The notes under the pieces are model-generated. The model did not search any database. It was not told where the DNA came from and worked only from the letters and a program-made list of their open reading frames with translations. Below, in pieces: positions 1,801-57,120 of a stretch of DNA of 64,000 nucleotides. A program made the translations under genes and the position numbers. The first letter of the stretch is position 1. Each line of letters starts with the position of its first letter. Source of the stretch: Eutreptiella sp. 'Long Island Sound 2002' (lineage: Eukaryota; Euglenozoa; Euglenophyceae; Eutreptiales; Eutreptiaceae). Location: assembly GCA_964036045.1 (NCBI GenBank), contig OZ038378.1:45625827-45689826 (forward strand), given 5' to 3'.

Positions 1801-1841
1801 CACCTATGATTTTAGCAGCTGTTTTTTCCCAAAATTCAAAA
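1801..1841 (+). repeat. left terminal inverted repeat of the DNA transposon
   Basis: The first 30 bases (CACCTATGATTTTAGC... ending in TTTTTTCCC) match the reverse complement of 12187-12216 perfectly. After that the left arm has four A residues where the right has five, followed by TTCAAAA in both. The outermost CA may belong to the duplicated target TGCA rather than to the element. Confidence 0.93.
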
Positions 1842-1879
1842 AGTCAGCAAAAGGCAGACTTTCGCGGGCAATGACCTAC

Positions 1880-2240
1880 TATTTTGGTTTCTACGGCCCC
1901 AAAATAGGGGGGGGGGGGTTCCTCCTACCCGGATTTTGTCCAAAAAAATCAAAAAACCTGAAATTTGGCCCATTTTGGGGTATTTTTGCCTGCTCTGGGC
2001 TGGTCCTGCAGAACAGTGCTGCACACCAGTGTACCTGCCTATAGAGGATTTTCGACAGAAATTGCCCTTTTGTTGGGATTCTCTTGCCCCAAAATACGGA
2101 TGGGGGGGCTCTTCCCACCCGAGCTTTTTCCTAAACCATCAAAAACCCTGGAACTCGGCCTATTTTGGAGTACTTTTGTCTGTTGTGGGGTGGTGCTTCA
2201 GAACAGTGCTACACACCAGCGTACCTGTATCCTATAGTAT
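1880..2240 (+). repeat. left subterminal repeats, family 1 (two copies, about 185 bp)
   Basis: Two diverged tandem copies share the order: ccccaaaata, a G run, ttcctcctacccg or ttcccacccga, a stretch ending in ggccCATTTTGG or ggccTATTTTGG, and then cagaacagtgct followed by acaccag and gtacctg. One copy ends near 2045, the other near 2236. There is no coding signal. Subterminal repeats of this kind are common transposase-binding zones in large DNA transposons; that role is inferred here. Confidence 0.7.
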
Positions 2241-2339
2241 AGGCACAAAAATACCATGAAAAGAGGTTTTGTACCCAAAAAGACCAAAGGAAACCTTTTT
2301 TCTTTTATTCTGCACGCTCAAAATAGGAGAGGGGGGTTC

Positions 2340-2900
2340 CTCCTACCCGATTGTTCTCCAAAAATACACTGTTTTTGGCCACAAATTGGCAATTTTCGGC
2401 CATTTTTGGACTAAAACTGTTTTTTTTCTGTGCTGACGGCCCTGCAACACCCAATAGGTTGCTCCAATACAATTCCAAACACATTTCACTGGATTGGGCA
2501 CCCTAAGAATAGGGTATGGGGCCCTAAAACTCACGACCCCGGCTAAAAAACACTATTTTCGGCAAAAAATTGGCAATTTTTGGCCATTTTTGGGCGAAAA
2601 CTGTTTTTTTTTGTGCTGACTGCCCTGCAACCCCCGATATGTTGCTCCGATACAACTGCAAACACGTTTCAGTGGGTCCTTTCCGACGCCGGCGGTCGTC
2701 AATGATCTCACAAACCGTTCGCGCAGTCTTTCGGCAAAAAGTTGGCAATTGCTGGCCATTTTTCGGCGAAAACTGATTTTCTTTTTGTGCTGGCGGCCCT
2801 GCAACCCCCGATATGTTGCTCCAATACAACTGCAAACACGTTTCAGTGGGTCCGTCCCCGACCCCGGCGGTCGTCAATGATCCTACAAGACGTTCGTGCA
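2340..2900 (+). repeat. left subterminal repeats, family 2 (three copies, about 180 bp)
   Basis: Three tandem copies contain ggcaattttcggccattttt-like sequence, then aaaactg with a T run, tgctga..gccctgcaac, and ttgctccaatacaa(c/t)..caaacac(g/a)tttca. Copies start near 2385, 2565 and 2740. The second and third copies also share gcggtcgtcaatgatc. They are unlike the repeat family at the right end of the same element. Bases 2900-3171 hold no repeat or gene that I can see and probably include the 3' untranslated part of gene 2. Confidence 0.75.
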
Positions 2901-3171
2901 TTCAAATCCAAGGAACCACCAACGGTAATGAAAACAAAGGACAATCGCAACAAGCCGCACCACTCTGAGCATCTGAGCATCTGGTTCTCTCAATCAGTTC
3001 AACATCGCACAAAGTGCATAATGAACACAGAGCTCAGGCATCTGCACTTCCAGAGATATGATCCTGCCGTATTCACAAACACGGCAATAAATTTAAATCA
3101 CCAAACTCTAAACAGCACAAAGTTCTTTTTTGGGAGAGGGAAAAAAACAAAAGATATATATGCAGGCGCTG

Positions 3172-5010
3172 CTAATAGGGCCGGTACATTGGAAAACCAA
3201 AGGGCTGCATGCTGCTCATGGTCGAACAAAGCTGCTGCATGGGCTGCATGGGCATTTGGAGCTGGTGCATGTTCATGGCTGGCATTGGCATGGCCATGGG
3301 CATGGCAACTGGCATGTTCATTTGCAAAGGACCCATATGCTGCTGCTGGGCCTGCTGGTGCATCTGCTGGTGCTGCTGCTGCTGCTGCACTTGGGTCTGC
3401 ATCTGCATCTGCAGCTGCAACTGCTGCTGCTGCTGCTGCTGCTGCTGCCACTGCTGCTGCTGCTGCTGCTGCTCCTGCTGAAACACCTGCCCAGGGGGGT
3501 TCGAAGACACCTGTTGAGGCACTTGAGACACCTGCTGAGACATGTGCTCTCCTGAATCCCGTTTAACCCTTCCATTTTTTCGGGTATTTTCACTGTTTTC
3601 ACCTTGCCCGCGTTTGCGCTTCAGGGGGTTTGTTCGGTTGTGTTGTTGTTGGGTTGTTTGTTGCAGTGCAGCCAAGAGCCGCTGAACAAGGTCAGCCTCT
3701 TGTTTTACCGTCCCACTGCCCGTCTCTTCCTTCTTTGGCTGTTTACTTGGTGGGCTGTTGTTTTTATGGCCTTTTGGTTTTGGTTTTGGTTTCGGTTTTG
3801 GTGGTGGTTTTGGTGGTGGCTTTGCGGTCGAATTCCGTTTCGGGTTCGGTTTGGGTTTCCCATTGGTAGTGACAGATTCCTTCTTCACCGCTGTGGTACT
3901 GAGGTTTGTGATCTCAGGGAGACGTGTGCTCCGCCGACTGTCCTCATATGCCAGTTCACGCTTGGCCTGGTGCGGACCGCAGGACTGACACCTCTGAGGA
4001 AACTTGAAATAAATGCACTGCCCGGAATACAAACCTTCCATCCAGGTCTTCCCTGCTTCACAGCCCTGCTTGTCAGCCAGGGCAATTTCTCTGAGGCTGG
4101 ATTCTGAAAACCGTAGAAGGGATCTGAAGTCTGCCTGCCCTGCCGTACAGCAAAATGCACAGACGCCGACAACATCCCAGGAAGCCGGATTGGTAGGAAT
4201 CACGGCTAATACTAAAACAGTGACGCCCCGTTCAAGCTGGACTGTCCACCTGCCTGGGAACAGGGGCTGCCCTTTTCGCGACAGACCGGGACAACGCACA
4301 GTGGGCCTCCACAACAGTTGGGTGTGCTGCAGAACCGAAGCATCGCTTAGGCCGTCATACATCTGCACAGTGTCACCGTGCTGCAGGTCACTCCAGGTCA
4401 CACTGGACGGCCGTAAATGTTTGCTGATCCAACAGCTATCGTCGGGCACGAATGGTGCATTTTGCGGATTCGAGAATGGTACAGCAGCAAAAAAACTAAT
4501 GCCTGGACACAACTTTGGCAGCATCCAGTGCTTTTCAACTGGCAGAAACAAAGTGTCACCTGGTGACAGTGACAGAGGGGTTGCGCTGTACTGAATTGTG
4601 TCAAGAGTATGCATTACGCAAAAATGACTGGCCTCTCGGCCCAAGCACACAAGACAAATCATTAGCACGCTCTCCATGTTAGCCAGCTGACAGGGAACCG
4701 GACGATCTGTGAGCGTTATCACTTGGGCAGCACCGGGGCAAGCCATTCCGAGCACAGGGCAGATCCGCTCAAGATGCTTGATGATGTCAGCAGCAGGGAC
4801 TCCACAGGCCCTTGAGCCCCCAGTCACGTCGTACCACAGACTTCTGCCCAATTTTTGAATTGCGTCAATCAGGGGCTTCATCAACGCCAGCGGCACCCCA
4901 TTGGCTCTCTTCAATGGATCCTGTGGACGACAGAAGTGGAGAGAGATACAGAGGGGTACTGAAAATATCAGCATGAATACGTTCCAAAATCTACCCCAAT
5001 CCATAAACAA
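3172..5010 (-). CDS. transposon gene 2: Lys/Pro- and Gln-rich protein, 612 aa
   Basis: I do not recognise the family. The frame is open for 612 residues. Residues 1-29 (MFMDWGRFWNVFML...) are hydrophobic and could be a signal-like start, or an artefact of intron sequence. A pyrimidine-rich tract ending in CCACAG at 4921-4923 looks like a 3' splice site and would start the exon at 4920 with DPLKRANG in the same phase. The middle (to about residue 340) has scattered Cys residues, including CQSCGPHQAKRE. Next come KPKP and PPPKPPPK repeats, a basic stretch with NPLKRKRGQ and NGRVKRD that could be a nuclear signal, polyglutamine coded by CAG runs, and a Met/Gln/Pro-rich tail. The gene starts only 89 bases after gene 1 stops, on the same strand. 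A DNA-binding partner of the transposase is plausible but unproven. Confidence 0.6.
   Translation of the reverse strand: MFMDWGRFWNVFMLIFSVPLCISLHFCRPQDPLKRANGVPLALMKPLIDAIQKLGRSLWYDVTGGSRACGVPAADIIKHLERICPVLGMACPGAAQVITLTDRPVPCQLANMESVLMICLVCLGREASHFCVMHTLDTIQYSATPLSLSPGDTLFLPVEKHWMLPKLCPGISFFAAVPFSNPQNAPFVPDDSCWISKHLRPSSVTWSDLQHGDTVQMYDGLSDASVLQHTQLLWRPTVRCPGLSRKGQPLFPGRWTVQLERGVTVLVLAVIPTNPASWDVVGVCAFCCTAGQADFRSLLRFSESSLREIALADKQGCEAGKTWMEGLYSGQCIYFKFPQRCQSCGPHQAKRELAYEDSRRSTRLPEITNLSTTAVKKESVTTNGKPKPNPKRNSTAKPPPKPPPKPKPKPKPKGHKNNSPPSKQPKKEETGSGTVKQEADLVQRLLAALQQTTQQQHNRTNPLKRKRGQGENSENTRKNGRVKRDSGEHMSQQVSQVPQQVSSNPPGQVFQQEQQQQQQQWQQQQQQQQQLQLQMQMQTQVQQQQQHQQMHQQAQQQHMGPLQMNMPVAMPMAMPMPAMNMHQLQMPMQPMQQLCSTMSSMQPFGFPMYRPY
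3352..3480 (-). repeat. CAG repeat tract coding polyglutamine in gene 2
   Basis: On the plus strand this is an imperfect run of CTG triplets broken by CAC, CTC and CAT units. On the coding strand it gives glutamine runs with interspersed W, L and M. Two blocks of nearly pure CTG (about 3421-3447 and 3454-3471) are the likeliest to vary in length. Confidence 0.85.
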
Positions 5011-5099
5011 TGAAAGATTAGCAACATTAGCAAGAAATGGCCAAAATTAGTAAATCTATCACAAGCCAAGGGATGTGGTGGCAAGAAGGTTGTATACCG

Positions 5100-8000
5100 C
5101 TAATTGTCAGCTGGCAATTTCGGTTCATGCGTGTACCAGAGAGTTGGAGACAGCCAGCCTTGCCTCCACAGCCCCAACCAGAGCCTAACGTGCTTCATGA
5201 TCTCCACCAGCCCCACTGGGCATTTCCCTCGTGGGCGAGAGGGGCGTTTTTGCACGATCTTGGAGTGGGGCTGGTGGACATGCTCGCCCCCCTCCGATGA
5301 CATGCCCACGAGGTTGCCATGTTTGCGTAGCCGGGGGGTGTAGTGCTCCAGAAAGTAATGATTTGGGACTCCAAACCGGCGCAGGGGAAACCTGAGGTCG
5401 CAAAAGAGCTGGTGTGCTTCACGGCACATGTCATCACGCTGGTCAACACCCTCCGGACTCCAGCTGTTCAGCTGGACCATCAGAATCCGCATCAGTTTCA
5501 AATATCGGTGTATTGGGTCCTGCAGAACCTCACCGTTCCGTTTGACTGTGAGACCATTTGCCGTTCGTGGGAACAGATCAGCTAGGGCTTTCCAAAAAGA
5601 ATCCTCCTTCAGGATATCTTTCGTGACAATGTTCCGGGGTGACCAGTCCCTTTTGCCAATAGCTTCTTTGAAAGGTGGGTAGTATGGAAAGCGCGTAAAA
5701 TGTTTCTCCAAAATTGTCTTCAATTGGACAGTGTATTCCTCAGGCAGGTTTGCTCTGGTCCAGAACCACAGGGGGTGGATCACCCCGTTTGCCAACACGT
5801 GATTGTTGCAGTGGTGTACATCATACACGCTGTTGAGGCGACATTTCATGAGGCGAAAGAAGGGAGCGCAGCGTGAAGGGTAGTTGTGAAAATCCAGCAA
5901 AGGCTGCCGTATCCAATCAGGGTGCTTCCAGAGTTTTTTTGAACCATAGCACTCCACACAACAGCAATCTGCTGTTGGTGGAGGCGTCCCTGTGGTTTGG
6001 TAGTAGGCGGCATAATCAGGAGAAAAAACCAGCTCCATGCTTTCACCACCCCAGCCGCTCTCCAACGCCTTCTCAAGGGCAGGAAGCAGGTCCATGCGCT
6101 CAAACTGCGACGAGGTTGTGATGTGATCATCCTGGTCCAGGTATCTCGCAAGGGGAAGTTGCAGAAGGAGTTGGTGTGGCTGACGTGCTTGCGGTAGATG
6201 TACGCTCAGCACCGGGCATTTGCGGCGCCCATACATTTCATTGGCGTCAAAAAAGACGCAGAGCTGCGGGGTTCTGACAGCGTCATGCAGGCAGCCATGT
6301 GCTCTTGCGAGCTCCAAATACAGTGGAAGGGCGGTACTCGGGTCTAGGTACGCACCTACCGGTGTGGTAGCAATCCCCATGTCGGCCGTCAAAAGCTGCA
6401 TGAGTTTGGTCACGCCTGTCCTGTACACCCCCTGACCATTGCCATCATTATTTCTGCGCGCGCAAATGAAATCTTCCCATGTATCATGGGTCGTAAACTT
6501 TGCAATGAGGGTATCCCTCAATTGCTCAAATGTGGCCGGTCTTGCCCTCAGTCTGTCTCGATTCAGTGATCGCTTGACTGCATGCTCCGCAATCAGGTGC
6601 CCGCAATGCAACTGCTTCGCATACGACCTCACAAGGCTGCGTCTGTTGGCCAGAGATTTCTGTGAAAGCTGCCATTCAGGCAGTTTGGGCCGTCCCGGTC
6701 TGGAAGGTTCTAGCATCTTAGGAAAAAAAAACAAAAAACAGCCTACAGCAACGTGGCGTGGTATGCGAAATAGTTGCTACAACGCTGATTGGTGCCTGCA
6801 CCCAAGTACCGCCCTGCCACTGTATTTGGAGCTCGCAAGAGCACATGGCTGCCTGCATGACGCTGTCAGAACCCCGCACCTCTGCGTCTTTTTTGACGCC
6901 AATGAAACCTCGCATGGATCCTGTTCTCTGTTGCCAAGGCTTTGAAGAGTTGCTGATGTGGTGGCCGTTGGACAGGCAGATCATCCTACATTTTGCTGAG
7001 GGGTACAGTGACAGGAATGCAAAAACCTTGAGATGCTCTGTTTGCTTTCGGCTGAATGGTGGAGGCGGTGGAAGAGCGATAATGTCGGGACCCTCGCTTT
7101 CGATCTTGCGCTCTGATGCCGTGTTGACGTTTTGCGCTTGGCGGTTCTCGTGTCGCTTCTCTGCTTCCTCCCGTTCGGTGCGCTCCTGAAGACATGCAAA
7201 AATCTAAATCCTATCTCCGTCAATTGGAAAGAAATGAACACGATAGGTATGCACAGAATCAAGAGAGCGTTACTGCAGAACTTTGCATGGTTACCTTTTG
7301 CTGTTGCTCCTCATCCCCTTGCTTTTGACGCTTTGCCGCCTCCGCCTTCTTTCTGTCCGCCTCCTCTCGTTCGGTGCGCTCCTGGCGACATGCAAAAAAC
7401 AGAATCCTATCTCCGTCAATTAAAAAGAAATGAACTCGATACGTATGCACAGAATCAAGAGAGCGTTACTGCAGAACTTTGCATGGTTACCTTTTGCTGT
7501 TGCTCCTCATCCACTTGCTTTTGACGCTTTGCCGCCTCCGCCTTCTTTCTGTCTGCCTCCTCTCGCTCGGTGCGCTCCTGGCGACATGCAAAAAACAGAA
7601 TCCGATCTCCGTCGATTGGAAAGAAATGAACACCATACGTATGCACAAAATCAAGAGAGCGGTACTGCAGAAATTTGCATGGTTACCTTTTGCTGTTGCT
7701 CCTCATCCACTTGCTTTTGACGCTTTGCCGCCTCCGCCTTCTTTCTGTCCGCCTCCTCTCGTTCGGTGCGCTCCTGGCGACATGCAAAAAACAAAATCCG
7801 ATCTCCGTCAATTGGAAAGAAATGAACACGATACGTATGCACAGAATAGAGAGAGCGGTACTGCAGAAATTTGCATGGTTACCTTTTGCTGTTGGTCCTC
7901 ATCCACTTGCTTTTGACGCTTTGCCGCCTCCGCCTTCTTTCTGTCCACCTCCTCTCGTTCGGTGCGCTCCTGGCGACATGCAAAAAACAAAATCCGATCT

Positions 8001-9780
8001 CCGTCAATTGGAAAGAAATGAACACGATACGTATGCACAGAATAGAGAGAGCGGTACTGCAGAAATTTGCATGGTTACCTTTTGCTGTTGCTCCTCATCC
8101 ACTTGCTTTTGACGCTCTGCCGCCTCCGCCTTCTTTCTGTCTGCCTCCTCTCGTTCGATGCGCTCCTGGGGACATGCAAAAATCAAAATCTGATCTCCGT
8201 AAATTGGAAAGAAATGAAGACGATACGTATGCACAGAATCGTGAGAGCGTAACTGCAGAATTCCGTGTGCGCTCCTGGAAGGTTACCTTTTGCTCTTGCT
8301 CCTCATCCGCTTGCTTTTGACGCTTAGCCGCCTCCGCCTTTTTTATGTCCTCTTGTGCTCTGTCTCGCGTCTCCGCTTCCTCTGGTTCGGTGCGCTCCTG
8401 GGGACATGCAAAAATCAAAATCCCATCTCGGTCGGTAGGAGAGAAATTAACGCGATATGCATGCACAGAATTGAAAGACCCTAACTGCACAACTTTGGAA
8501 CGTTACCTTTTGCTGTTGCTTCTCATCCGCTTGCTTCGGTCGGTGCGCTGCCTCCGCCTTTTTTCTGTCCTCTTCTGCTCTGTCTCGCCTCTCCGCCTCC
8601 TCCCGTTCGGTGCGCTCCTGGGGACATGGGTTCTCTGCCTTTCTGGGCTTCTCAACCTGAGTGGCACGAAGTTACACAAAGCACCGAACTGTTGGCCTAT
8701 GAAGCGTGTCCCACCGGCCGAAATCCCAGCCAGCGATATTCACGGGTTGTGCCACCCATGCGGTGGGGTGATGGTCTATGTGTGAGTCACAAACATTTAA
8801 TGCACCGCAAGCAACAACATCAACAAGCATTGAACAGCAATAGATGCCTGTCGAATGCTGCTCATTGATATGTCCATAAGTTTGAAGCTCACTTGCAGTT
8901 TGTGCGGTGGAAACAGCTTTTGGATTGTGAAGCCTCCAGTCTTACTTCTGTCCTCAAGCGCTCGAAGAATCTCTGGTATCGTTTTGGAACTCATACCGCT
9001 AACACACAGGTTCTCGCAGAGTTTGATCAAATAATGTTTTGAGTAAGCACTTGCCTGCTTAAACAGCTCCATACGCGTCATATGCTCAGTTGCTTCGGCT
9101 ATTCTTGATGCCAACGCTTCCTCAGACACATCGGGTGACCTACTCTTTTTGGTATACTTCCTCAACTTTGGGGGCTTTGGTTTAGTTTTCTTGTTCTTTT
9201 CCTTTTTGGCTTTGGGTGTGCCACTTGCGCCATCCTCCGAGTTGTCGCCATCGTCACCATCGTCCTCATCATCACTACTTTCATTTTCCGAGCTCTCATC
9301 AGAAGGTGCCTCGCCGTAGTCGGATGTTTCATCACTCGGGACGTCACACCCATCGTTGAAGAAGGCAGGCAATCCAAGAGGAAGGGTTGGGAGGACGTCA
9401 GCGCGTTTAAACCAATAGAAGTAATTATTTGGGAACCTCATGCATAGGTCGTTCTTGTTTGGTTCCGGTATTTTTTTCGGTATAATCAGCATTCCGTACC
9501 AAAACAAGACCCGCTTTTCACCGGTTTGCACATTGGTGGACATGCCACATTTGATGTAATTGAAGGTCCCGACTTCAACACTTTGGTCTTCCTTAAGACA
9601 ATGCCCTGCAAGGAGCCTTTCTAGCTCCGGGTCCAAACTTTCGCAATTTTCCCATGCTCCGCCTTCTCCTTGTTCCGCCGCATCTTCCACGTCCCCCTTG
9701 CCTATATGACAATCGGCAGGCACCCAGGCTGGCATGTCAGGCTTTGGAATCACAACCTTTTTCTTCTTGGAAGGAGCCAT
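5100..9780 (-). CDS. transposon gene 1: ten-exon gene with a repeated coiled-coil exon, putative transposase
   Basis: I built this model from open frames and splice signals. Exons are 9780-8893, 8617-8507, 8397-8287, 8165-8079, 7969-7883, 7773-7687, 7577-7491, 7381-7295, 7185-7027 and 6716-5100. Every intron is GT-AG and phase 0, giving 1106 residues with no stop. Exon 1 (296 aa) has a basic N-terminus (APSKKKK), a conserved-looking core (RVLFWYGMLIIPKK), a Ser/Asp/Glu-rich stretch and a Lys/Pro-rich stretch. Exons 2-9 each start ERTE(R/P)EE and form a charged coiled coil. Exon 10 (538 aa) has Cys/His clusters (CCCVEC, HHCNNH), acidic candidates in VFFDANE and a late SSEGGEHVH, which resembles an RNase H-fold transposase layout. 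That role is inferred from position in the element. A stop-only reading of exon 10 would start at 6734. Confidence 0.65.
6236..6355 (-). repeat. inverted duplication, arm 1 (inside exon 10)
   Basis: This stretch codes DPSTALPLYLELARAHG through VFFDANE on the minus strand. It is repeated in reverse orientation at about 6791-6906. The central 95 or so bases differ at only about three positions. Confidence 0.88.
6791..6906 (+). repeat. inverted duplication, arm 2 (inside the last intron)
   Basis: A plus-strand copy of part of exon 10, located in the 310-bp intron between exons 9 and 10. In a gene 1 pre-mRNA the two arms would pair over more than 100 bases with a loop of about 430 bases. Confidence 0.88.
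7027..8617 (-). repeat. tandem exon array (8 exons, 196-bp core period) inside gene 1
   Basis: Eight consecutive exons start CAG|GAGCGCA, and the first seven end AAG|GTAAC. Exons 2 and 3 are 111 bp (37 aa), exons 4-8 are 87 bp (29 aa), and exon 9 keeps the same start but runs 159 bp into new sequence. Introns between the 87-bp exons are all 109 bp and nearly identical, so exon and intron were duplicated together. Each unit is a multiple of three in phase 0, so gaining or losing a copy leaves the frame intact. The module reads ERTEREEADRKKAEA and ends in QQQK. Confidence 0.85.
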
Positions 9781-9954
9781 TGCTTAGCCCTGTGGGTTGT
9801 ACCAAAGGGAAGTCACATTTTGTCGCCATGCATGCTCCCATGACCATTCGTTCACCCTTAGTTCACTATCTTTTCACCCTTTGCTCACCCTACCTAGGAA
9901 GGCATAATACACACAAAAAGCACGCAACAAGGGCATGAAGGCAGTAAGACAATC
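9781..9954 (-). promoter_or_regulatory. probable promoter and leader of transposon gene 1
   Basis: The only unique sequence between the gene 1 start codon and the right repeat array. It contains TCACCCTTTGCTCACCC-type repeats on the plus strand. No clear TATA box is visible, so the promoter could lie in the array itself. The assignment rests on position only. Confidence 0.35.
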
Positions 9955-11690
9955 GTTGCTTACGTATGAACCATATGGAAATGGACCACAAACGGTGCAA
10001 AATAGGGCCAAAAGTACCTCAAATGTTCATCGCTCATCCCATTCTTATGCACATAGTATCATATTTTATGTACAACGATGACACACGGAGAAAGAAAATT
10101 CTCAAATGGCTCAAATAGTTCCAAGCCTACCTATGAACCATATGGATATTGGATCACAAACGGTGCAAATTAGGGCCAAAAACACCTCAAATCTTCATCG
10201 TTCATCCCATTCTTATGCACATACTATCATATTATATGTAGGACCTATCATACAAATGCTTACAATAACAACCTAAGCCCCAAACATGTGTGTGTACGGT
10301 GATAGGCACGCAAAAGCCCACCTATGACCCATATGGAAATGGACCACAAACGGTGCAAAATAGGGCCAAACACACCTCAAATGTTCATCTTTCATCCCAT
10401 TCTTATGCACATAGTATCATATTTTATGTAGTTCTTATCATTCAAATGCATACAATACCAACCCAAGCGCCAAACATGTGTGTGGACGGTGATAGGTGAT
10501 CAAAACCCTACCTATGAACCATATGGATATGGAGCACAAATGGTACAAAAACGGGCCAAAAACACCTCAAAACTACATTGTTCATCCCATGCTTGTGCCC
10601 GTAGTATCATATTTTATGTAGTTCTTATCATTCAAATGCATACAATACCAACCCAAGCCCCAAACATGTGTGTGGACGGTGATAGGTGATCAAAACCCTA
10701 CATATGAACCATATGGATATGGAGCGCGAAAGGTGCAAAAACGGGCCAAAAACACCTCAAAACTACATTGTTCATCCCATTCGTATGCACATGCTATCAT
10801 ATTTTATGTCGTTATTATCATTCAAATGCATACAATACCAACCCAAGCCCCAAACATGTGTGTGGACGGTGATAGGTGATCAAAACCCTACCTATGAACC
10901 ATATGGATATGGAGCGCAAAAGGTGCAAAAACGGGCCAAAAACACCTCAAATCTACATCGTTCATCCCATTCTTATGCACATACTATCATATTTTATGTA
11001 GTTCTTATCATTCAAATGCATACAATACCAACCCAAGCCCCAAACATGTGTGTGGACGGTGATAGGTGATCAAAACCCTACATATGAACCATATGGATAT
11101 GGAGCGCGAAAGGTGCAAAAACGGGCCAAAAACACCTCAAAACCACATTGTTCATCCCATTCGTATGCACATACTATCATATTTTATGTCGTTATTATCA
11201 TTCAAATGCATACAATACCAACCCAAGCCCCAAACATGTGTGTGGACGGTGATAGGTGATCAAAACCCTACCTATGAACCATATGGATATTGGACCACAA
11301 ACGGTGCAAAATAGGGCCAAAAACACCTCAAATGTTCATCGTTCATCCCATTCTTACGCACATACTATCATATTATATGTAGGACCTATCACACAAACGC
11401 TTACAATAACAACCTAAGCCCCAAACATGTGTGTGTACGGTGATAGGCACGCAAAAGCCTACCTATGAACCATATGGAAATGGACCACAAAAGGTGCAGA
11501 ATAGGGCCAAAAACACCTCAAATGTTCATCTTTCACCCCATTCTTATGCACATACTATCATATTTCATGTAGTTCTTATCATTCAAATGCATACAATACC
11601 AGCCCAAGCCCCAAACATGTGTGTGGACGGTGATAGGTGATCAAAACCCTACCTATGAACCATATGGATATTGGGCCCCATGGTGCATGA
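9955..11690 (+). repeat. right subterminal tandem array, ten copies, 190-bp period
   Basis: Ten copies of a unit beginning (c)ctaYctatgaaccatatgg start near 9961, 10129, 10318, 10508, 10698, 10888, 11078, 11268, 11458 and 11648. The first spacing is about 168 bp and the rest are 190 bp. Shared blocks include gggccaaaaacacctcaaa, ttcatcccattc, tatgcacat, tatcatatt and ccaaacatgtgtgt. Copies at 10698 and 11078 are almost identical, as are the pairs 10508/10888, 10129/11268 and 10318/11458, so larger blocks have been duplicated. The recurring CCTATGA core is also the outer part of the terminal inverted repeat. Short open frames here are repeat artefacts. Confidence 0.93.
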
Positions 11691-12174
11691 GAAAGGGATG
11701 AATAGCCTAGAATAAAGGCAAAACATCGCTTGTCATGTAGGCTTCTACCAATGGTGATGACAATTTGTTCATATATCACCTCTATACCACCTCTTACAGC
11801 CCTGTAAGGCCCTCTATATGGCCTCCATAGACCCTAAAACCATGTAAAAAAGTGGTTTTTGGGTAGAGAAGCGTGAAGTTCTCCAAATCTGTGCCTGCCA
11901 ATCTGGATTTCTTTAGGTCAGCAGCAAGGTATTTATCTCGGGAACACACTCATGCCTTTACTTTGCTTCCAACTGCGAAAAAAAGTGGACTTTTTGGCGA
12001 TTTTCTATTGCGCACGGCGGTCGGTAATCTGAAACTCGCGTACGCGGCAGTTGCTGACAGTTTATCTGCGGCTCCAGCTTCAGCGACAGCATAATTTTAA
12101 TAAAAATTTGAGAAAACATAAAAACAACAGTACTACTGTGTACAGTTTGATATCGCGGTTCTGAAAATGCATGA
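11691..12174. other. right inner flank of the DNA transposon, no gene seen
   Basis: AT-rich sequence between the satellite array and the right inverted repeat. I see no coding signal. The last repeat fades near 11690. Confidence 0.6.
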
Positions 12175-12216
12175 TTTTGAATTTTTGGGAAAAAACAGCT
12201 GCTAAAATCATAGGTG
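12175..12216 (-). repeat. right terminal inverted repeat of the DNA transposon
   Basis: Reverse-complement partner of 1801-1841: a 30-bp perfect match at the outer end and about 41 bp overall with one A-run length difference. It is followed directly by gcacagcg, the resumed Ty3 reverse transcriptase sequence. Confidence 0.93.
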
Positions 12217-40066: not shown

Positions 40067-42829
40067 CGGAAATTGCCGAGGCCCGTGGTGAGGTGCGCCA
40101 CCGGGGCTGTGGGCTGCAGGACAGGGGTGGCGTACACCCCTATTCCTTTGGAGATGATGTGTTTCGCTTGGGGGGGCATGGCTATGAGTCCCTGTTCCGG
40201 TTGTCCTTGTGTGAGGTGGGAGTAGATGTAGTGGAGGATGTAGGTTGTGTCTGGGTCTAGGTCGTGGCATGTGAGGGTTTGTGTTCGGTGCTCCGGTGTG
40301 TGACAGGAGTGTTGGAGCAGATAGTAGGGGTGCTCGTGGTTGCCCGTTCTGCCTGGTTCGTACATGCTGTAAGGGATGGCGACCCCTGCCGGGTCGGGGC
40401 GGGGCCAGGTGGGCGTAGTGGTGAAGAGCCATTGGGGTGTGTGGTCGGGGTTCCATGCTACCGTGGAGTTCGCGTCGGTGCGGTAGAACCATGGGGCCAC
40501 CGATGCGTAGGCCTGTGGTGGTGGGTGGGTCGTTGGGTGGGTGTGGTGGCTTGCTATGAGGTGCAATACGGGTCATTGCGTGGTTCGTGCATCGGGATCA
40601 CAGGCCCAATATGTGCGTTGCATGCTCTGCAGGGGAGTCATCGGGGACCTTTGGTAGGTCTCGGGCGGTCATCTGGTGCTTCGGTATGCACCATTTTGCC
40701 CCGTGGTGGATGACGGTGGTCTGCGTGGGTTTGGCTTCATTCAGGGCCAGTAGTAGGGTTAGTGGTGGGACTGCGTCCGTCACCGGGGAGACGGGTTCGT
40801 GTTTCAAGCCGCTGGGTGCGTAGGGCGGTGTCGCTGGGATGGGTCGGGGGTGCTGCTTTTTGAAGTCTCGGTAGGCTGCTCGCATGTCTGTGCTTCCTGG
40901 CAGAGGGTGGCCCACTGCTCGTGCCTTCTGCGTGAGGTACTGGTGGAAGAGGTGGTATTTCTGCCATTCTGGAAGTTGTAGGAAAGGAGTGTGGTGTGCT
41001 CTGCTGTGGTGACGGACCCGCATTTGTGAGAGGGTGACGTATACTACGGTGATGGAGGCCCCAACGAGGTCTATGGTGTTGATGGTGCCCTTTGGGTGAT
41101 GGTGGAGGTCCCCGCAGAGGACCGCCAGAGGCCCTTCCTCCGAGAATGTGTTGTTGGTGAGTGTGGCGTGGTGTGGGGATGGCAGGAGAAGCTGCAGGTG
41201 GTTCCACAGGCACGTGTTCATGTCGCTGGGCTTGCCCGTCTGGTGGAGTATCCAGCGTGGGCATATGTTGCGGGCCCGTTGTGCGGCTTGGAGGTGGATC
41301 GTGGCGACCTCGCGGACCTCCAGCGAGTGGTTGTGGGTCATGCGGTGAAGGAGGAGCGCGGTGTGTCTGGCGTAGGCCGCTTTCACCTCGTCCTCTATGG
41401 CGTCCCCATAGTGGGGCCATGCCGCCCGGATGGCGCGGTTAGGTATAGAGGTGGGCCAGCCCCCGTGTGCTGCCCATGCCTTGGTACGGCGCGTGTTGCT
41501 GGTTGGAGGGCGGTGGTGGGGTGTGGCAGGTGGGATGCCTGGAAGCCTATGGAGGCGTTCAAAACCCCGGTGAGGTAGTACGCCAGGCTCTGGTGGGACA
41601 GGGAGAGGGCCTTGGTGGTCGAGGACGCATATCGCGGGAGATGGGCGAGGTGTGACTGCAACTTGGGAGGGAGGGTGGCGTCCTCAGGGTTGGTGGCCTG
41701 GATTACCCCCAGGTGGGTGGTGGTTGTCACGACTTGCATGGGGGGTCCTTGTGGCCCTAGGGTGGGGGATGTGGCAGACCCCTTGATTATGGCCACTGAC
41801 GTTATGGGGTGGACGATGAGGTTGTTTCAAGAGAGGTAGGAGATGGTCACGTCCAGTAAGTCGTTGGCCTGCTGGGTGACCGGTGGCCCAGGGTCTCGGG
41901 GGTGGGGTTCGTGTGGGGTGTGTGTGACCGTGAGGTTGGTGTCGTCCGCGAAGCCCAACAGGGGGGAGAGGAGGGGGTAGGCCACGTAGGCCGGGTAACC
42001 CTGCTAGATTGTGAGGGCCAGAGGGAGCGTCACGAGGAGGTACAGCAAGGGGCCTTCTGCTCCTCCTTGGAGGACTCCGCTGCCTGGCTCAAGGAAGGGG
42101 GTGAGGCCTGCTCCAGTGCGGACCATGTATTTGCGGGTGCGGATGTAGCCGGAGGCGAAGTTGTAGAAGGGGAGACCCAGGTGTTTCCAAGCTGCCTCCA
42201 GAAGGAGCAAGGGGGTGTTCGGGAAAGCTCCTTTGACGTCGAGTGAGGCAATGATGAGGGCTACCAGGTCCATGTTGGCGATGGTGTCCTGGAGGAAGAT
42301 GACCTCGTGTGGGAACCGGCCTGCGATGGCCCCCCAGAGGCTGGCGGGTATGTGGGGGTCCAGGTGGGGGCGGATGCGGCGTAGGAGGACGGTCCAGACA
42401 ATTTTGACCTCTGTGACTGCACAGACTATGGGGCGCCGGTTGTCCGGGTTGGCCCAGTCCCCCTTTTTGTAGAGGGGGCGGACAATGTTTGCCCAGTCTG
42501 GTGGTAGGGGGGTTTGCCCCTTGACAATGTCCCAGAGGCGGTGGGCGAGGATGCGGAGGATGTGGGCGGGGAGGTGGCAGTATGCCTCCGCAGGGAGGCC
42601 GTTGTAGCCTGGGGTTTTGTGTTGCCGGAGACTGTGGATGGCCCTCCGGACTTCGTGGATGGTGAAGGGGCGCTTTTCCAGTGGCCTCCTCTGGGCGTGG
42701 TTGAAGACCTGAGGGAGGCGGTAGATTTTGGCCTGGGTGTCCGTGTCCAGTGTGTCTTGGGTGGGCGTGTGTTGTTGGAGGAAGCCGTCTAGGGTGGCTT
42801 GGAGCACGTTGGCCGGGTCGTTGGTGAGG
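40067..42829 (-). pseudogene. LINE A ORF2, middle part: reverse transcriptase and connector
   Basis: The minus-strand frame from 42846 carries LINE reverse transcriptase motifs in order: KTPGYNGLPAEAY, PLYKKGDWANPDNRRPI, motif A ASLDVKGAFPN (catalytic Asp), motif B SGVLQGGAEGPLLY, and motif C GFADDTNL (near 41950). Stops are TAG at 42004 and TGA near 41832. A one-base frameshift near 41496 moves the connector to the frame ending at 40598. Another frame carries 40566-40070 (KHIISKGIGVYATPVLQP), which leads into RNase H once the LTR element is removed. It is a dead copy, but all three reverse transcriptase catalytic positions are still readable. Confidence 0.88.
42816..42829. repeat. 14-bp target-site duplication, left copy
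   Basis: GGTCGTTGGTGAGG, identical to 43215-43228. The two copies flank a 385-bp segment. Confidence 0.85.
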
Positions 42830-43214
42830 TAGGTAGGTAGGTGCACTCGGTCGTGGAGAGGCGCCCCATGGTTCCCCCTGGCGTCGCCCCTGTGACGAAC
42901 AGGAAGAGGCTCCGCGCGTGAAGAGGGGAGGCGGCTTACATCCCGCTAGACCTGACTGTTGGCCCCCAACAAAGCGGCCCCGGGCAACACCGGGAGGGCT
43001 GATCGCCGCCAGCGTGACGTGCTTGTCTCGCCGGGAGGGTGTGCCCCCGTGCTTGCGCACGTCCCCTCCTTTGGGCGGAACCCTAGGGGTTCACCGGACT
43101 TCCTGGCGTATCCCGTTCCCAAGGCATGCATGCATGTTCTTGGTACTAGGGTTCCGAGGCGCTTGGGTGTCGCACGCTCCGCCTCGAGTCCCAAAGCAGC
43201 GCAGGCCTTAGGAT
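42830..43214 (-). mobile_element. SINE-like 385-bp insertion in LINE A ORF2
   Basis: Flanked by a perfect 14-bp direct repeat. On the minus strand it ends in an ACCT tetranucleotide run (plus strand taggtaggtaggt), as in SINEs with simple-repeat tails, so I orient it on that strand. I do not find convincing pol III A and B boxes. Insert plus one duplication copy is 399 bp, a multiple of three, so endonuclease and reverse transcriptase remain in the same frame. A stop at 42946 lies inside the insert. Alternative reading: a short retrocopy or a domain-sized duplication. Confidence 0.65.
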
Positions 43215-43228
43215 GGTCGTTGGTGAGG
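43215..43228. repeat. 14-bp target-site duplication, right copy
   Basis: GGTCGTTGGTGAGG, partner of 42816-42829. On the coding strand both copies encode LTND, at the join between endonuclease and reverse transcriptase. Confidence 0.85.
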
Positions 43229-44480
43229 GAGCTGTCCTCCTGTCCGACTGTGGTGATGGTGCGGTGGCCGGTGTTGGTCATGGCTTCGCTGAAGTGGCAG
43301 ATGGCCTTGTAGGGGAGTTCATGTTGCGCATACCGTTCTCGTTCTTGGGCGATGTGCTGTTGCCTGTGGATGTGCCACTGCACCAGGTCTGCCCTGATGT
43401 GGGCTATCTGCGTCCTGCAGTGGTGTATCTGGCCGCGGGTTTGGGGGGTGTCGGTGTGGAGGAGGCTCGCCAGTTGTTGCTTCGCATGCCAGAGGACATG
43501 GAGCATGTCCCCTAGGGCGGTGGGACGTCGGTCATCGTCAGTGTGGGGGTGTTGCTGGAAGCCGCAGGCGACGGCGGCCGTGCGCATGGCTGTGAGTAGG
43601 TTGGTGGGGTCCGGTTGGATGCGCCAGGCGCGGTCTCTGGCCCTGTGATATTGGGACCAGGCCTGTTTGTTGTTCAGTGGGGGCATCCTCAGGGGGGGTG
43701 GTAGGCCTACGTCCGCATCCTCCGGGGGGCTGGGGGGAAGGTTTGGGATGGTGAGGCGGATGTGCAGGGGGCTATGGCCTCTGGGTACCAGCGGGAGGGG
43801 CCCATATGCGGCCTCCGCCCGGATGATGGTGGTGGGGTCGCCATAGCATACGTCGATGCGGGAGGGGGCCGCAACTGCTTGGCGGGGGAGGTGGGATGGT
43901 TGGCCTTCGAGGTTGGCCATCAGTTCCACGAGCCCCAGCATTTCGTCGGTGTCGCGGACTGCATGGTTCTGGGGTCTGGCCTGTCGCCCTCGGTCCCCTG
44001 GGGTGGGCGCGGTGTTCATGTCGCCGATGATGATTGTGGGGGCGAGAATGGCCATCTGGCAGTATGCCTCAGCAGAAGCTTGGAGGAAGGGTTCAGTGGC
44101 GTTGCCGAAGGGGACGTCGGCGTTGATGATGTTGAGTTGCAATCGGTCCCCGACGACCTCGTGGACACCTAGCCTCCCTGCGATGCTGAGATGGTGGACG
44201 ACGTGGACGTGGATGCCAGTTCGGGCGTACAGGAGGGTCCCTTTGTGCCAGTAGCGTTCGTACCCTTTCCGGTCTGGAGTGTGTAAGGGGGTGGTTTCTG
44301 GGGGGTCGTCGCATTGTAGGCCTTGTTCCTTGAAGGCGAGGAGGTGGGGAACCCACTCCGGCCCCTATGCCTTCGGGAGCACCTGGAGGGCGCTTGTGGC
44401 GTCCCTGGAGTATGTGACGGCCGGGTAGTTGAGGTGGAGGGTGGCCTCGGTGGGGGCGGGCCGGGGCTGTGGAGGCTTGT
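43215..44480 (-). pseudogene. LINE A ORF2, 5' part: apurinic-type endonuclease
   Basis: The frame holds HLLAFKEQGL (the LLQE-type Glu), RLQLNIINADVPFG, the Asp-Asn pair in IIIGDMNTAPTP (near 44025), SRIDVCYGDP (near 43855) and the C-terminal catalytic His in RGHSPLHIRL (near 43765). These are the usual motif positions of LINE endonucleases. One in-frame TAG lies near 44367. The segment after 43700 is the helical linker to the reverse transcriptase. The start of ORF2 is not clear; coding continuity begins at about 44480. Confidence 0.85.
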
Positions 44481-52230: not shown

Positions 52231-53290
52231 CTGCTGGTTGGTCTACCCTTGTGTCCTAGTGGTGTTTCTGGCGGCCCTGCAGCTCCCCTGGCGGAGGGTT
52301 GCTGGGCTCTTGTTCTTTGGGCTTTCCTGTGTTGTGTGCGTTTGTGGTGCGCGCTTTGATGTGTTGTGCACATTTTTGGGACTCGTGTTGGTTGCGGCTG
52401 TGGCGATGTGTGTATTGTGCGCGCGCGGGCGTGTGTGCAGTGTGTTGGTGGTGCGTTTGGGTGCCTGTCCTCGCCTCTCCGGCCTTGTTATGGCGGCTCA
52501 GTGTGGGCGCGGGGCTGTGTGTCGTGGCTGCTCCCCCGCCCTGGCTGTGGGGCCCGGGTGTGGTTCCCCGCCACCCCCTTTGTGTGCCCCCCCCCCTCTT
52601 TCTCTTTGCCGCGTCGCTTGGGGTGCTGTTCCCCTGGTACCTTGCCCGGGCCTACCCGGGCTGTGGTGGGTGTGCCGTGGGGCTGGGTGGGGGGGGGGGG
52701 AGGGGTCCTTGACGCTAGCTCGGGTCCCTTCCCTTGTTGTTTCCCCTCGGGGGGGCCGATGCTTGCACTCCCCGTCAGGGTGTAACTCTGTTGTACGGGC
52801 CATCCATTTGCACCCGCTCGGTACAAATGGTCCTTGCTCCGTAGCCAGGTACTGCAGCTGTTCCCCACACCGGGGTCGGGTACACTGTAGGTCGCAGGGG
52901 AGTCCTTGCGGGACAGGCGTGTCTCTTGCCTGTCCCCATGGACGGTGTGCCCTACCCGCAGCCCCTCTCTGGGCCCGAACCGCAGTACGTGCCGTGGGGA
53001 GGAGTGGGGGGGCGCATTGGTCACTCCACCAGGCTGGTGCCACCGCGGGACGCTGACGAACGGTCCCCGGCGTATACCACCTTATTGCGTGTGCTCAGGT
53101 GAAGCCGATACCGTCACCAGGGGGGCCTCGAAACCCCTGAGGTTGGCTCCCTGGCCTGCGCCCCCGGTGGGCCCCTTTTGTCCCGCCCCCCCTTTCGCGG
53201 TGTGGTTTGTGGTGGTGGATTTCCCGTCTCTCCTGGGTGGGGTGGGGTGGTGGTGGTGGGGGGGCGGCTCCTCGCCGACCCTGGCCGAGT
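52231..53290. other. G/C-rich spacer between repeat tracts
   Basis: Less repetitive than its neighbours. It contains poly-G and poly-C runs (52570-52590, 52685-52705). A short plus-strand frame near 52938-53100 begins MDGVPYPQPLSGPEPQYVPW and looks protein-like, but it is under 60 codons. I cannot support a gene. Confidence 0.4.
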
Positions 53291-55690
53291 TGCTTATGTG
53301 CGTGTCCCCGCCACTCCTGGCTGAGGCTCGCCGCTGGTGGCGGAGGGTGGTCCCTCGCCACTCCTGGCTGGGGGTCTTGGGTGTGGCTCCCCTCCACTTC
53401 TGGCTGGAGTTCTCTGGTGTTGGTGTGGGGGTCGGCCTTCGCCACTCCTGGCTGAGGGTCAGCTGGTTTGTTGGGCGTGGTCCCTCGCTTCTGGCTGAGG
53501 GTCCTGGGTGGGCGTTCCATCGCCACCCCTGGCTTGGGGCCTCGGGTGCGGTCCCCCGCCACTCCTGGCTGGGGGGCCCGCTGGTGTTGGTGGTGGGTGG
53601 CCCCTCGCCATTCCCGGCTGAGGGTCCTGGTTGCGGTTCCCTGCCACTCCTGGCTGGGGTCTGTCGGCTGCGGTGGGGGGGGTTTCCGCGGGTCTGGTTT
53701 GGGGGTTTGCCGTGTTGTGTGTGTTCGTCGCGGGGCGCGTGCTGGTGTGTGCGTTGTGTGTTTGTGGTGATGGCCTGGGTGTGGGTGTGTCTGTGGTGTG
53801 TGTTGGTGCGTGTGTGGCGTGTGGCGGTTGGTTTCCCTGGCTGGGGCTTGTGCCTGGTGTAGGAGTGGGTGTGGCTGGTGTGTGTTGTGGGTGGTCCCTC
53901 GCCACTCCTGGCGGAGGTTCCTGAGTGCGTTTTCCCGCCACTTCTGGCTTCGATTCGCTGCCGGTGGTGGTGGGTGTTTCTCGCCACTCCTGGCTGGGGT
54001 CCACTGGCGGTGGTGGTGTGTGGTTGCTTGCCAGTCCTGGGTGTGGTCCTGGTTGCGGTTCCCCGCCACTCCTGGCTGGGGTCCGCCAGCCGCGGCGGTG
54101 GCCCTTTCTGTGGGGTTGGCCTGGGGGGTTTCTCGTGGTGTGTGTGCTTGTGGCGCGGCGCGTGCGCACGTGGTGTCCGTGCTGGTGTGTGTGTCGTGTG
54201 TTCGTGGTGGTGGCGTGGGTGTGGCTTGTGTCGTCCGTGTGTGGGTGTGTGTGTGTGTGTGTGTGCGTGTGTGGTGTGTGGCGGTTGGTTTCCCCAGCTG
54301 GGGCTTACCGCTGGTGTGGGTGTGGGTGTGGCTGGTGTGTGTTGTGGTTGGTCCCGCGCCACTCCTGGCGGAGTTTCTTGAGTGCGATTCGCCGCCACTC
54401 TTGGCTGGGTTTCGCTGCTTGTGGTTGGTGCTCCTCGCCACTCCTGGCTGAGGGCCCCGGGTGCGGTTCCTCGCCAATCCTGGCTGGGGTCCGCTCGCCG
54501 CGGTGGTGTGTGGTTGCTTGCCACTCCCCGCTGCGGGTCCTCGTTGCGGTTCCCCGCCACTCCTGGCTGGAGGGTCCGCTCGTGGCATTGGTGGGTGGGC
54601 CCGTGCCACTCCTGGCTGAGGGTGTTGGGTGCGGTTCCCCGCCACTCCTGGCTGGGGTCCGCCTGCCGCGGCGGTGGGTGTTTCCGTGGGTTGGGGTTTC
54701 CAGTGTTGTGTGTGCATGGGTTGCAGCGTGTGTGCGTGGTGTCTGTGCTGGTGTGTGTGGTCTGTGTTTGTGGTGTCTGTGGTGGTGGTGGTGCGGGTAT
54801 CGGTGTGCCTTCGGCGTGCGTTTGTGTGTGTGTGTGTGTGCGTGTGTGGTGTGTTGGAGGCGTGTGGTTGCCGGTCCTTGCTTCCTTCGGCTGTTACTGG
54901 GGCTGGTGGGGGTGTTGCTGGTGTTTGCTATGGTTGGTCCCTTGCCACTCTTGGCGGATGTTCCTGTGTGTGACTCCCCGCCACTTCCGGCTGGGTTTCG
55001 CTGCCGGTGGTGGTGCGTGCTCCTCGCCACTCCTGGCTGAGGGCCCCGGGTGCGGTTCCCCGCCACTCCTGGCTGGTGTCTGCTGGCGGCGGTGGTGTGC
55101 GGCTCCTTGCGACTCGTGGCTGGGGCCTGCCGGTTGCGGTGGGGTGTGTTGTGGGTGGGGGTGTCCCTTGTCCTGAGTGTTTGCCGTGCGTGTGGCTGCG
55201 CGCGGTGGCCGTGCTGTGTTGTGCGCTGCGTGTTTGTGGTGTCCGCGTTGTTGGTGGTGTGGTGTGGTGGTGTGGCGTGGGTGTGTCTCTCGCGTGCGCT
55301 GGTGTGCGTGGTTGCGTGTGTGTGGTTTGCCGGTGGTCCGTGGTTTGTTGTCCCCGCCTCTTTTAATCTGCTGCAGCTGGTGTTCGTGTGGGTGTGGTTG
55401 GTGTGTGGTGTGGCTCCCCCGCCGCTCCTGGCTGAAAGACCTGGGTTGTGTGCCCCGCCACTCCTGGCTCGGGTCCGCCATTGTGTGGTGGTGGTTGGTC
55501 CCTTGCCACTCCTCGCTCAGGGGTTTGGTTGCGGGGCCCCGCCACTCCTGGGTGGGGTTCGCCGCCGGGTGCGGTGGTTGGTCCCTCGCCACTCCTGGCT
55601 GAGGGCCGTGGGTGTGGTTCCCCGCCACTCCTGGCTGGGGTCCACCGGGTGTGGTGGTGGGGGCCCGCTTGCCACCCCTGGCTGTGAACG
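53291..55690. repeat. minisatellite with CGCCACTCCTGGCTG core and roughly 0.5-kb higher-order units
   Basis: The core CGCCACTCCTGGCTGRGG recurs every 40-80 bp, with variants such as cgccacttctggctt and cgccaatcctggctg. Blocks of core repeats alternate with G/T-rich spacers rich in gtgtgtg. Four larger units can be followed, starting near 53665, 54080, 54657 and 55125 with ctgccgcggcggtgg-like sequence. Each runs through a gtgtgtg spacer, then gcggaggttcctgagtgcg, gtttcgctgcc and gtggtgtgtggttgcttgcca. Minus-strand PQPGVA and SQEWRG peptides are simply the translated repeat. Confidence 0.85.
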
Positions 55691-55984
55691 CCGTAGTGCC
55701 CTTCTCCTTGGCCCTGGTGTGTGTTTGTGTGCTGTGTGGCGCTTCGTGTTGGTGTGGGTGGCGTGCGGGTTTCTGGTTGCCGTGTGTGTGCATGTGTGTG
55801 CGTGCGGTGTGTGGTTTGTGGGGTGTGTCATACCTTGGTTGGTTCTCTTCGTTGGTTGGCATGGTTGTCGTCAAAAAGCAGAAGAAAAGCAAAAGGAGAG
55901 ATCCTGTAGATGTGTAGCAGAAATGCGTGATATGCGAATGTGAAATACATACCACTCTATTTGTCCCACCGCGCATTTTTCCCC
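55691..55984. other. spacer, no gene seen
   Basis: G/T-rich at first, becoming balanced after 55860. Nothing recognisable. Confidence 0.5.
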
Positions 55985-57120
55985 CTGTAGAGAGAGAGCG
56001 TGTGCAGGCCCTTGGGGGGTTGGTTGGGTGTGGGGCGGGTGCGGCGGTCCTACCTCTCCTCTTGTGGCTCTTGTTTTTGGTTCCCATTTAGTCTCGTTGC
56101 GTGTTGTGCCTTGTGTCTCTTTTTTTTCCCGTAGCGTCCTCGATAACATACCTCTTTGCCTTGTGTTTTCCCTATAGAGAGGGCGTGCAAGGGTTTTTTT
56201 TTGCGGTAACATACTTGCCATACCTTGTGCAGCTCCTCGTTGTCATCCCCCATGGAGAGAGCGTGTGCATGTTGTGTGGGTGGGGCGGGGGGTGGGGTAT
56301 CATAGGATGTTTCTCCTTGACCGTGTTCCCGTCTTCTTGTACCTTGCGGGCGTTTGGCGTCGCATGGTTTCTTGGCTGTGGTTTGTGTTTGTTCACTTCT
56401 GTATGCATGTGTGGCCCCCTTCGCGCCCTTCTTCGCAATTCTAACATACTTGGATTCCACGTTGTGGGGGTGGTGCGGGGTGTATGGGCTCTTATTATAC
56501 TTGTTCGCCATACCATTGTTTCCCCGTGTTCTGTGGCCATCTCTTCTAGCGAGAGCGTGTGCATGGTGTGTGGGTGGGGCGGGGGCTGGAGTTTCATACC
56601 ATGTTTCTCCTTGACCTTGTCTCCGTCTTCTGGTGCCTTGCGGGATTTCAACGTCTCATGGTTTCACGGGCGGCCTTTGTGTTTGTACGCTTGTCTATGC
56701 GTGCGTGGTCCCTTTGGTGCCCTCCTTCGCACTTTTAACATACTTGGTGTCCACCGGTCCACACCTATGCTTACGTTGCGGAGTTGGTGCGGGGTATATG
56801 GGTTCTTAATTTAGTTGTTTGCCATACCATTGTTTCCCTATGCTCAGGGGCCGTCCCATACACTTTGCCTTTTTTTTTCCGTCGTCTTGTACCTCGCGGT
56901 GCTTGGACTCTATGGAGGAATGGGGATATGGGTGTGGTTCCCGTTGGCACGCATGCTTTATGACGTGCGTGGTGGTTTGTTGTTGATTTTTGCGTGCGGT
57001 GTTGTCCCTTTGGCGCCCTCCTTCACAACATACTTTGTTTTCCTCACCTACACATGTGTAGCGGGGGAAATGTAGGATGCATGGGGTCGTAACATACTTG
57101 TTTGTCATACCTTTGTTTCC
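55985..57120. repeat. tandem repeat of about 290 bp, three to four copies
   Basis: Copies start near 55988, 56262 and 56552 with gagagcgtgtgcatg(t/g)tgtgtgggtggggcgggg or close variants. They continue through tttctccttgacc, cgtcttct, accttgcggg, catggttt and ccctTCGCGCCCTTCTTCGCA-like sequence to aacatacttg. A more diverged copy runs from about 56840 to 57110. Repeat-derived frames are not treated as genes. Confidence 0.8.

Follow-up and report, generated by a model that had tools for sequence, protein, structure and literature searches.

Elements of the CACTA type have subterminal repeats in which the terminal motif is reiterated near the ends, and the length of a target-site duplication (TSD) reflects the distance between two active sites on the target DNA. 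EnSpm/CACTA, Mirage, Chapaev, Transib, Plavaka, ESTA and Lanisha are grouped into a CMCT clade (PMC12730594). The ancestor of RAG1 belongs to this clade. Traits given there for the clade are C(2)C and H(3-4)H motifs between the second D and the last E, 5'-CA..TG-3' termini in most cases and TSDs of 2–5 bp, and CAC..GTG ends are reported for EnSpm (PMC12730594). In mouse RAG1 the corresponding residues are D600, D708 and E962, with zinc residues C727, C730, H937 and H942 (PMC4914335). Other lineages are described with different duplications: 7–8 bp for KDZ (Kyakuja, Dileera, Zisupton; PMC12730594), TTAA, that is 4 bp, for Kolobok and piggyBac, none or 1–4 bp for PHIS (PMC10045372), and 6–7 bp for Dada, which inserts into small RNA genes (snRNA/tRNA) and whose representative Dada-U6_DR has 8963 bp, 11 exons, 1402 aa and the residues D567/D635/E811. 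PMC3706591, PMC9587614 and PMC10799480 were also consulted.

Ends of the element and its insertion site

The element described here occupies positions 1801–12216 (10,416 bp) of the window, the 64,000-nt stretch of Eutreptiella sp. 'Long Island Sound 2002' DNA that was analysed (contig OZ038378.1, positions 45,625,827 to 45,689,826). A first-pass annotation had described a large DNA transposon nested in a decayed Ty3 element and placed its ends at these bases; our data agree with this description, and the ends are right to the base, since other genomic copies end at the same positions. The termini are 5'-CAC...GTG-3', and CAC..GTG is found in all 15 insertions with two recognisable ends. The left terminal inverted repeat (TIR; 1801–1842, plus strand) begins CACCTATGATTTTAGCAGCTG and the right one (12175–12216, minus strand) ends ...CATAGGTG. 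Matching repeats of about 41 bp had been noted; they measure 42 nt, are 93% complementary and are identical over the outermost 34 nt. When searched with up to three mismatches, the terminal 21-mer is present in the window at the two TIRs only, and in 0 of 100 shuffles. All 20 left ends fetched from other copies (L004 and L005 among them share flanks) carry CCTATGATTTTAGCAGC, preceded by CA in 19 and by TA in one.

The host Ty3 reverse transcriptase (RT) is interrupted as proposed: Pfam RVT_1 positions 1–90 are matched on the left and 114–204 on the right. Once the two flanks are joined, they find matching Ty3 copies without the interruption in L031 and L034. Elsewhere in the window, remnants of a non-LTR retrotransposon lie on the minus strand (42004–44364), with an endonuclease (PF03372, E = 6e-6) followed by an RT (PF00078, E = 2e-4, under its cut-off), and region 53000–56000 holds GC-rich imperfect tandem repeats with periods mostly of 36–85 bp, in which several frames are open.

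Target-site duplication

Insertion at this locus duplicated a single G, the left copy of which (1800) is placed by the Ty3 relatives that L031 and L034 carry without an interruption, and the right copy (12217) by flank comparison. The right end was found for 16 of the 20 fetched left ends and, as L004 has the flanks of L005, these represent 15 independent insertions. Three copies that match the element over 437–472 bp only (L007, L015, L018), with the right end absent from the 22 kb examined of each, were left out of the TSD count; so was L019, whose right end was not found and for which 1.3 kb lay outside the sequence examined. The base outside CAC and the base outside GTG are the same in 13 of the 15 insertions, while re-paired left and right flanks give a mean of 4.2 matches and reached 13 in 0 of 10,000 trials. 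Longer flank matches extend over two bases in 2/15, three in 1/15 and four or more in 0/15, and the duplicated base is variable, with A, C, G and T all seen over the 15 target sites.

Uninterrupted relatives, 79–96% identical, are available for seven of the 15 insertions (L001, L002, L005, L010, L012, L013, L016). We joined the flanks less one base and compared them with the sequence examined: with exactly 1 bp taken out, six of the seven align across the junction free of gaps. In L001 and L010 a single alignment gap lies away from the junction, and L012 has one extra T beside the right end. No empty site was present in the sequence compared for the other eight, among them L011, which fits a duplication of 2 bp (GT) and not of 1 bp. 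The empty-site alignment suggested in the first-pass annotation, together with the flanks, refutes the 4-bp TSD (TGCA/TGgCA, or else 3-bp GCA) read there from this locus: the duplication is 1 bp long, and TGCA is due to chance sequence at this one site. A 4-bp NCAC duplication, considered because L001 and L002 both show CAC after the first flanking base, was rejected, as the other insertions lack CAC there. Among the literature matches listed, a 1-bp TSD is not described for any DNA transposon of eukaryotes; the range given for PHIS reaches 1 bp (PMC10045372).

Gene structure

Two long open reading frames (558 and 624 aa) lie on the minus strand. Their exonic stretches count 509 and 583 codons (the latter including the stop), whereas the longest open stretches were 286 and 307 when each was shuffled 1,000 times. 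The initial description of two intact genes stands as far as these long stop-free frames are concerned, whereas their separation is doubtful: a single model on the minus strand, from 9780 to 3172, combines 11 exons into 1,659 aa with no stop, the two frames being connected across intron 10 (269 nt). All 10 predicted introns are GT-AG and phase 0, with splice sites picked by hand to hold the frame. One predicted gene explains this arrangement most simply and fits better than two, and in the related family B (see below) locus L033 has a GT after LLE at about the matching place, as for the one-gene model.

In this model exon 1 (8893–9780), which starts MAPSKKKK, encodes the N-terminal region, and exons 2 (8507–8617) and 3 (8287–8397) encode a charged repeat. 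Exons 4 to 8 (8079–8165, 7883–7969, 7687–7773, 7491–7577 and 7295–7381) each encode a 29-aa repeat and lie in 196-bp tandem units, in which the repeat exon takes up 87 nt and the intron 109 nt. Exon 9 (7027–7185) is followed by exon 10 (5190–6716), with the proposed catalytic core, and by exon 11 (3172–4920, stop codon included), which encodes the C-terminal part with a basic, Q/M-rich tail. Starts of repeat exons number 7–9 in 13 of 18 other copies, four in L019, two in L011 and none in three truncated copies. As the number of 196-bp units (7161–8640 in the window) varies between copies, the length of the charged repeat segment would differ as well.

Copies and age

The genome searched comprises 2,280,300,865 bp in 2,205 contigs, with the window in contig C1. 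Search within it revealed a multicopy family, with copies that have the same ends at unrelated sites. The best 40 of 1,022 first-look candidates for the left end were scored and are 95–100% identical. For full-length exon 10 the best 84 of 1,429 candidates, the window's included, were scored; they are 94–100% identical and 64 of these 84 have no stop, decayed copies being under-represented because only the best candidates were scored.

Twelve exon-10 sequences, including the identical pair L004 and L005 (one insertion), differ on average by 0.86% at synonymous and 0.73% at non-synonymous sites (ratio 0.86). Changes confined to a single copy are 37 non-synonymous and 11 synonymous, and shared ones six and one. 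The pattern is, as judged from these sequences, that of a young burst whose copies have been drifting after insertion, and these copies do not show selection on the protein. The recent activity and intact coding capacity suggested at first reading are therefore upheld: by its synonymous differences the element is young, and by its many stop-free copies it is apparently intact. One copy contains several stops and differs by about 8% in the largest block that matches (4,172 bp), more elsewhere, so the family predates the burst. Another, L002, is a deletion derivative of 1.07 kb that keeps both ends. No relatives were found by search in viral and bacterial/archaeal contigs.

A proposed catalytic core

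Profile and PDB searches (Pfam, NCBIfam, PDB), proposed earlier for exon 10 along with structure prediction, gave no credible match for the protein; exon 10 has no Pfam match up to E 10, and single-sequence structure prediction reached a pLDDT of 35. PDB matches to DPH3-type proteins and a nitroreductase look spurious and were rejected. The earlier statement that no transposase motif can be placed is thus correct for profile matches, but the spacing of residues allows us to propose a DDE-like core. Exon 10 contains QLCVFFDANE (D725), MELVFSPDYA (D802), CCCVEC (C821/C824) and YDVHHC (D867/H870), followed towards the C terminus by NHYFLEHY (H1021/H1026) and SSEGGEHVH (E1043/E1046). From D802 on, local spacing is that of RAG1: +19 and +22 from D to the two Cys, +5 from His to His and +20 from H1026 to E1046. 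The Glu context is also alike, SSEGGE at E1046 and ASEGNE around E962 (chain text) sharing SEGxE. In contrast, the first D–D interval is 77 residues here (D725–D802) versus 108 in RAG1 (D600–D708), and the distance from the second D to the E is 244 versus 254.

The arrangement D-18-C-2-C followed by H-4-H-19-E was found in a fraction of 0.0002 of 20,000 exon-10 shuffles, a generous figure because the exact spacings were set after the residues were seen. On its own, H-4-H-19-E is found in 5% of shuffles. Exon 10 has two such matches, one at H869 and one at H1021, and family B lacks the one at H869 (YDLSHC). A 50-mer of RAG1 scored 30 against the window protein, where shuffles have a mean of 29.7 and 2,265 of 5,000 reach the score, and its best match is at 855–874 rather than at E1046. 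With the family B piece the 50-mer does match SSEGGE, but as high a score is obtained by 1,115 of 5,000 shuffles.

Family B is about 30% identical and was found in L033, L047, L048 and L049; genome-wide, scores were computed for the best 150 of 830 candidates. The alignment of L048 spans the core (tblastn E = 7e-43, in a search of three short sequences). In both L047 and L048 the residues at the positions of D725 and D802 are D. A Cys stands at +19 and the next at +21 by a hand count across a stop, which gives C-x-C where C-x-x-C was expected. The YDVHHC of the window reads YDLSHC or, in L047 and L048, YDVSHC. HYFLAH (H-x4-H) is present in L033, L048 and L049, L033 being without the D725–D802 stretch. 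Four in-frame GT-AG introns can link HYFLAH to SSEGGEH in L033, giving H-to-E distances of 20, 21, 25 and 28, and the choice of a 93-nt intron gives 20, as in the window. All four family B copies read are broken, and they therefore support residue conservation only. A 1841-aa frame in this family (C4:140195683) was rejected, as it runs into N.

At least 19 family B matches are listed within about 3.6 Mb (G000:C6, ~110.0–113.7 Mb), which suggests local amplification. Beside the family B piece of L049 (G000:C6:113370900-113372200) lies a short tandem repeat that reads RQSNAEPDGKAMQSP-like in all three frames of the strand.

Subterminal repeats and an inverted exon copy

Repeats are found near both ends. 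On the left they occupy 1857–2900, in units of ~174–190 bp; on the right a plus-strand array (10126–11668) consists of 8.1 copies of a 190-bp unit and contains the terminal 8-mer ACCTATGA seven times, where 0.084 would be expected in 9800–12170. Beyond the right end of the element the 8-mer occurs once in 51.8 kb, and it has 5–7 sites in 14/14 other copies with the right end found. We infer from this that its copies in the right array are candidate internal sites for the transposase.

Intron 9 contains an inverted partial copy of exon 10 (6792–6907, plus strand), derived from 6236–6351, which holds the D725 codon. In the RNAfold model of the window, this piece and exon 10 form the two arms of a stem with 110 bp paired. 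Of 19 copies examined, all 14 that keep that part of exon 10 have the inverted piece, 10 of them with a second, shorter one; 52 nt are left of it in L012, and L011 and three truncated copies have none. Such a stem, if formed in the pre-mRNA as modelled, could be a source of small RNAs against the transposase.

Discussion

We favour, with a probability of about 65%, the reading that this is a young DNA transposon of class II, perhaps CMC/Transib-like, whose one spliced gene would encode a giant DDE-type transposase and which inserts with a 1-bp target stagger. Its ends, copy number and youth, the 1-bp TSD, the uninterrupted target relatives and the open coding sequence are all directly observed; splicing, DDE chemistry and cut-and-paste movement over another route we infer. 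The transposase would recognise the ends through the CACCTATGA terminus and, putatively, the ACCTATGA copies of the subterminal array, would assemble via the charged repeat segment and would attach both 3' ends to target phosphates separated by one base, which gap repair would then duplicate. The element may work like a CMCT element. A bolder proposal, which we would sooner doubt than accept, is that it represents a superfamily-level eukaryotic DDE lineage related to Transib/RAG1 and CACTA, which would cut its target with a one-base stagger below the range of the clade and carry an intronic inverted copy of its catalytic exon able to make dsRNA against its own transposase.

An unlikely but serious alternative is a transposase of the C/DxxH group (hAT, MuDR, P, Kolobok, Dada) with D867-V-H-H870, between the second D and the last E, as its signature; the RAG1-like spacing would then be a coincidence or reflect shared ancestry of transposases with a helical insertion. 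The DxxH is indeed kept in family B, and Dada is likewise large and intron-rich with a DxxH after the second D. Set against this, the Cys pair, the His pair and the Glu sit at RAG1 offsets. The Dada duplication of 6–7 bp in small RNA genes also differs from the single base found here; the seven sites with uninterrupted relatives are other sequence than small RNA genes, and no Rfam match or tRNA was found in the window. Nor is there a TTAA 4-bp duplication, as in Kolobok and piggyBac.

The very short duplication and the lack of a significant match to any DDE family might also point to insertion by a recombinase not of the DDE kind, site-specific or otherwise, with an overlap of 1 bp left behind. 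We consider this improbable in view of the long symmetric inverted repeats, the absence of a fixed base at the 15 target sites and a candidate D-D-E set of which family B retains a part. CAC..GTG ends and a 244-residue D–E interval are, to our knowledge, not traits of PHIS elements, and sequence comparison provides no Pfam match for exon 10; a divergent PHIS-type element (a relative of PIF/Harbinger, ISL2EU or Spy) therefore has very little credence with us, even though 1 bp falls in the stated range of this group (PMC10045372).

If the favoured reading of a CMC/Transib-like transposon is true, a young, many-copy CMCT relative with a 1-bp duplication would show how far target geometry can shrink. 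If its core is CMCT-like, Pfam profiles miss the lineage, and its annotation is probably incomplete. With so many stop-free copies of exon 10, biochemical tests are practical.

The affinity of the core to CMC, Transib and RAG1 is suggested by C821/C824 and H1021/H1026, which stand at RAG1 offsets; in family B the His pair is H(4)H and the Cys pair C(1)C. The CAC..GTG ends are those reported for EnSpm and agree with the CA..TG termini of most CMCT elements. Unlike CMCT members, the element has a TSD of 1 bp (13/15 insertions, 6/7 empty sites) rather than 2–5 bp, shows no significant transposase similarity (Pfam, PDB, RAG1 50-mer) and possesses an extra DxxH and amplified 29-aa repeat exons. We do not file it as a CMCT member because its duplication falls outside 2–5 bp and significant similarity is lacking. 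KDZ elements differ too, with TSDs of 7–8 bp versus 1 bp here. As in CACTA elements, the terminal motif is reiterated near the ends, though here in a 190-bp tandem array, on one side and with ACCTATGA as the motif.
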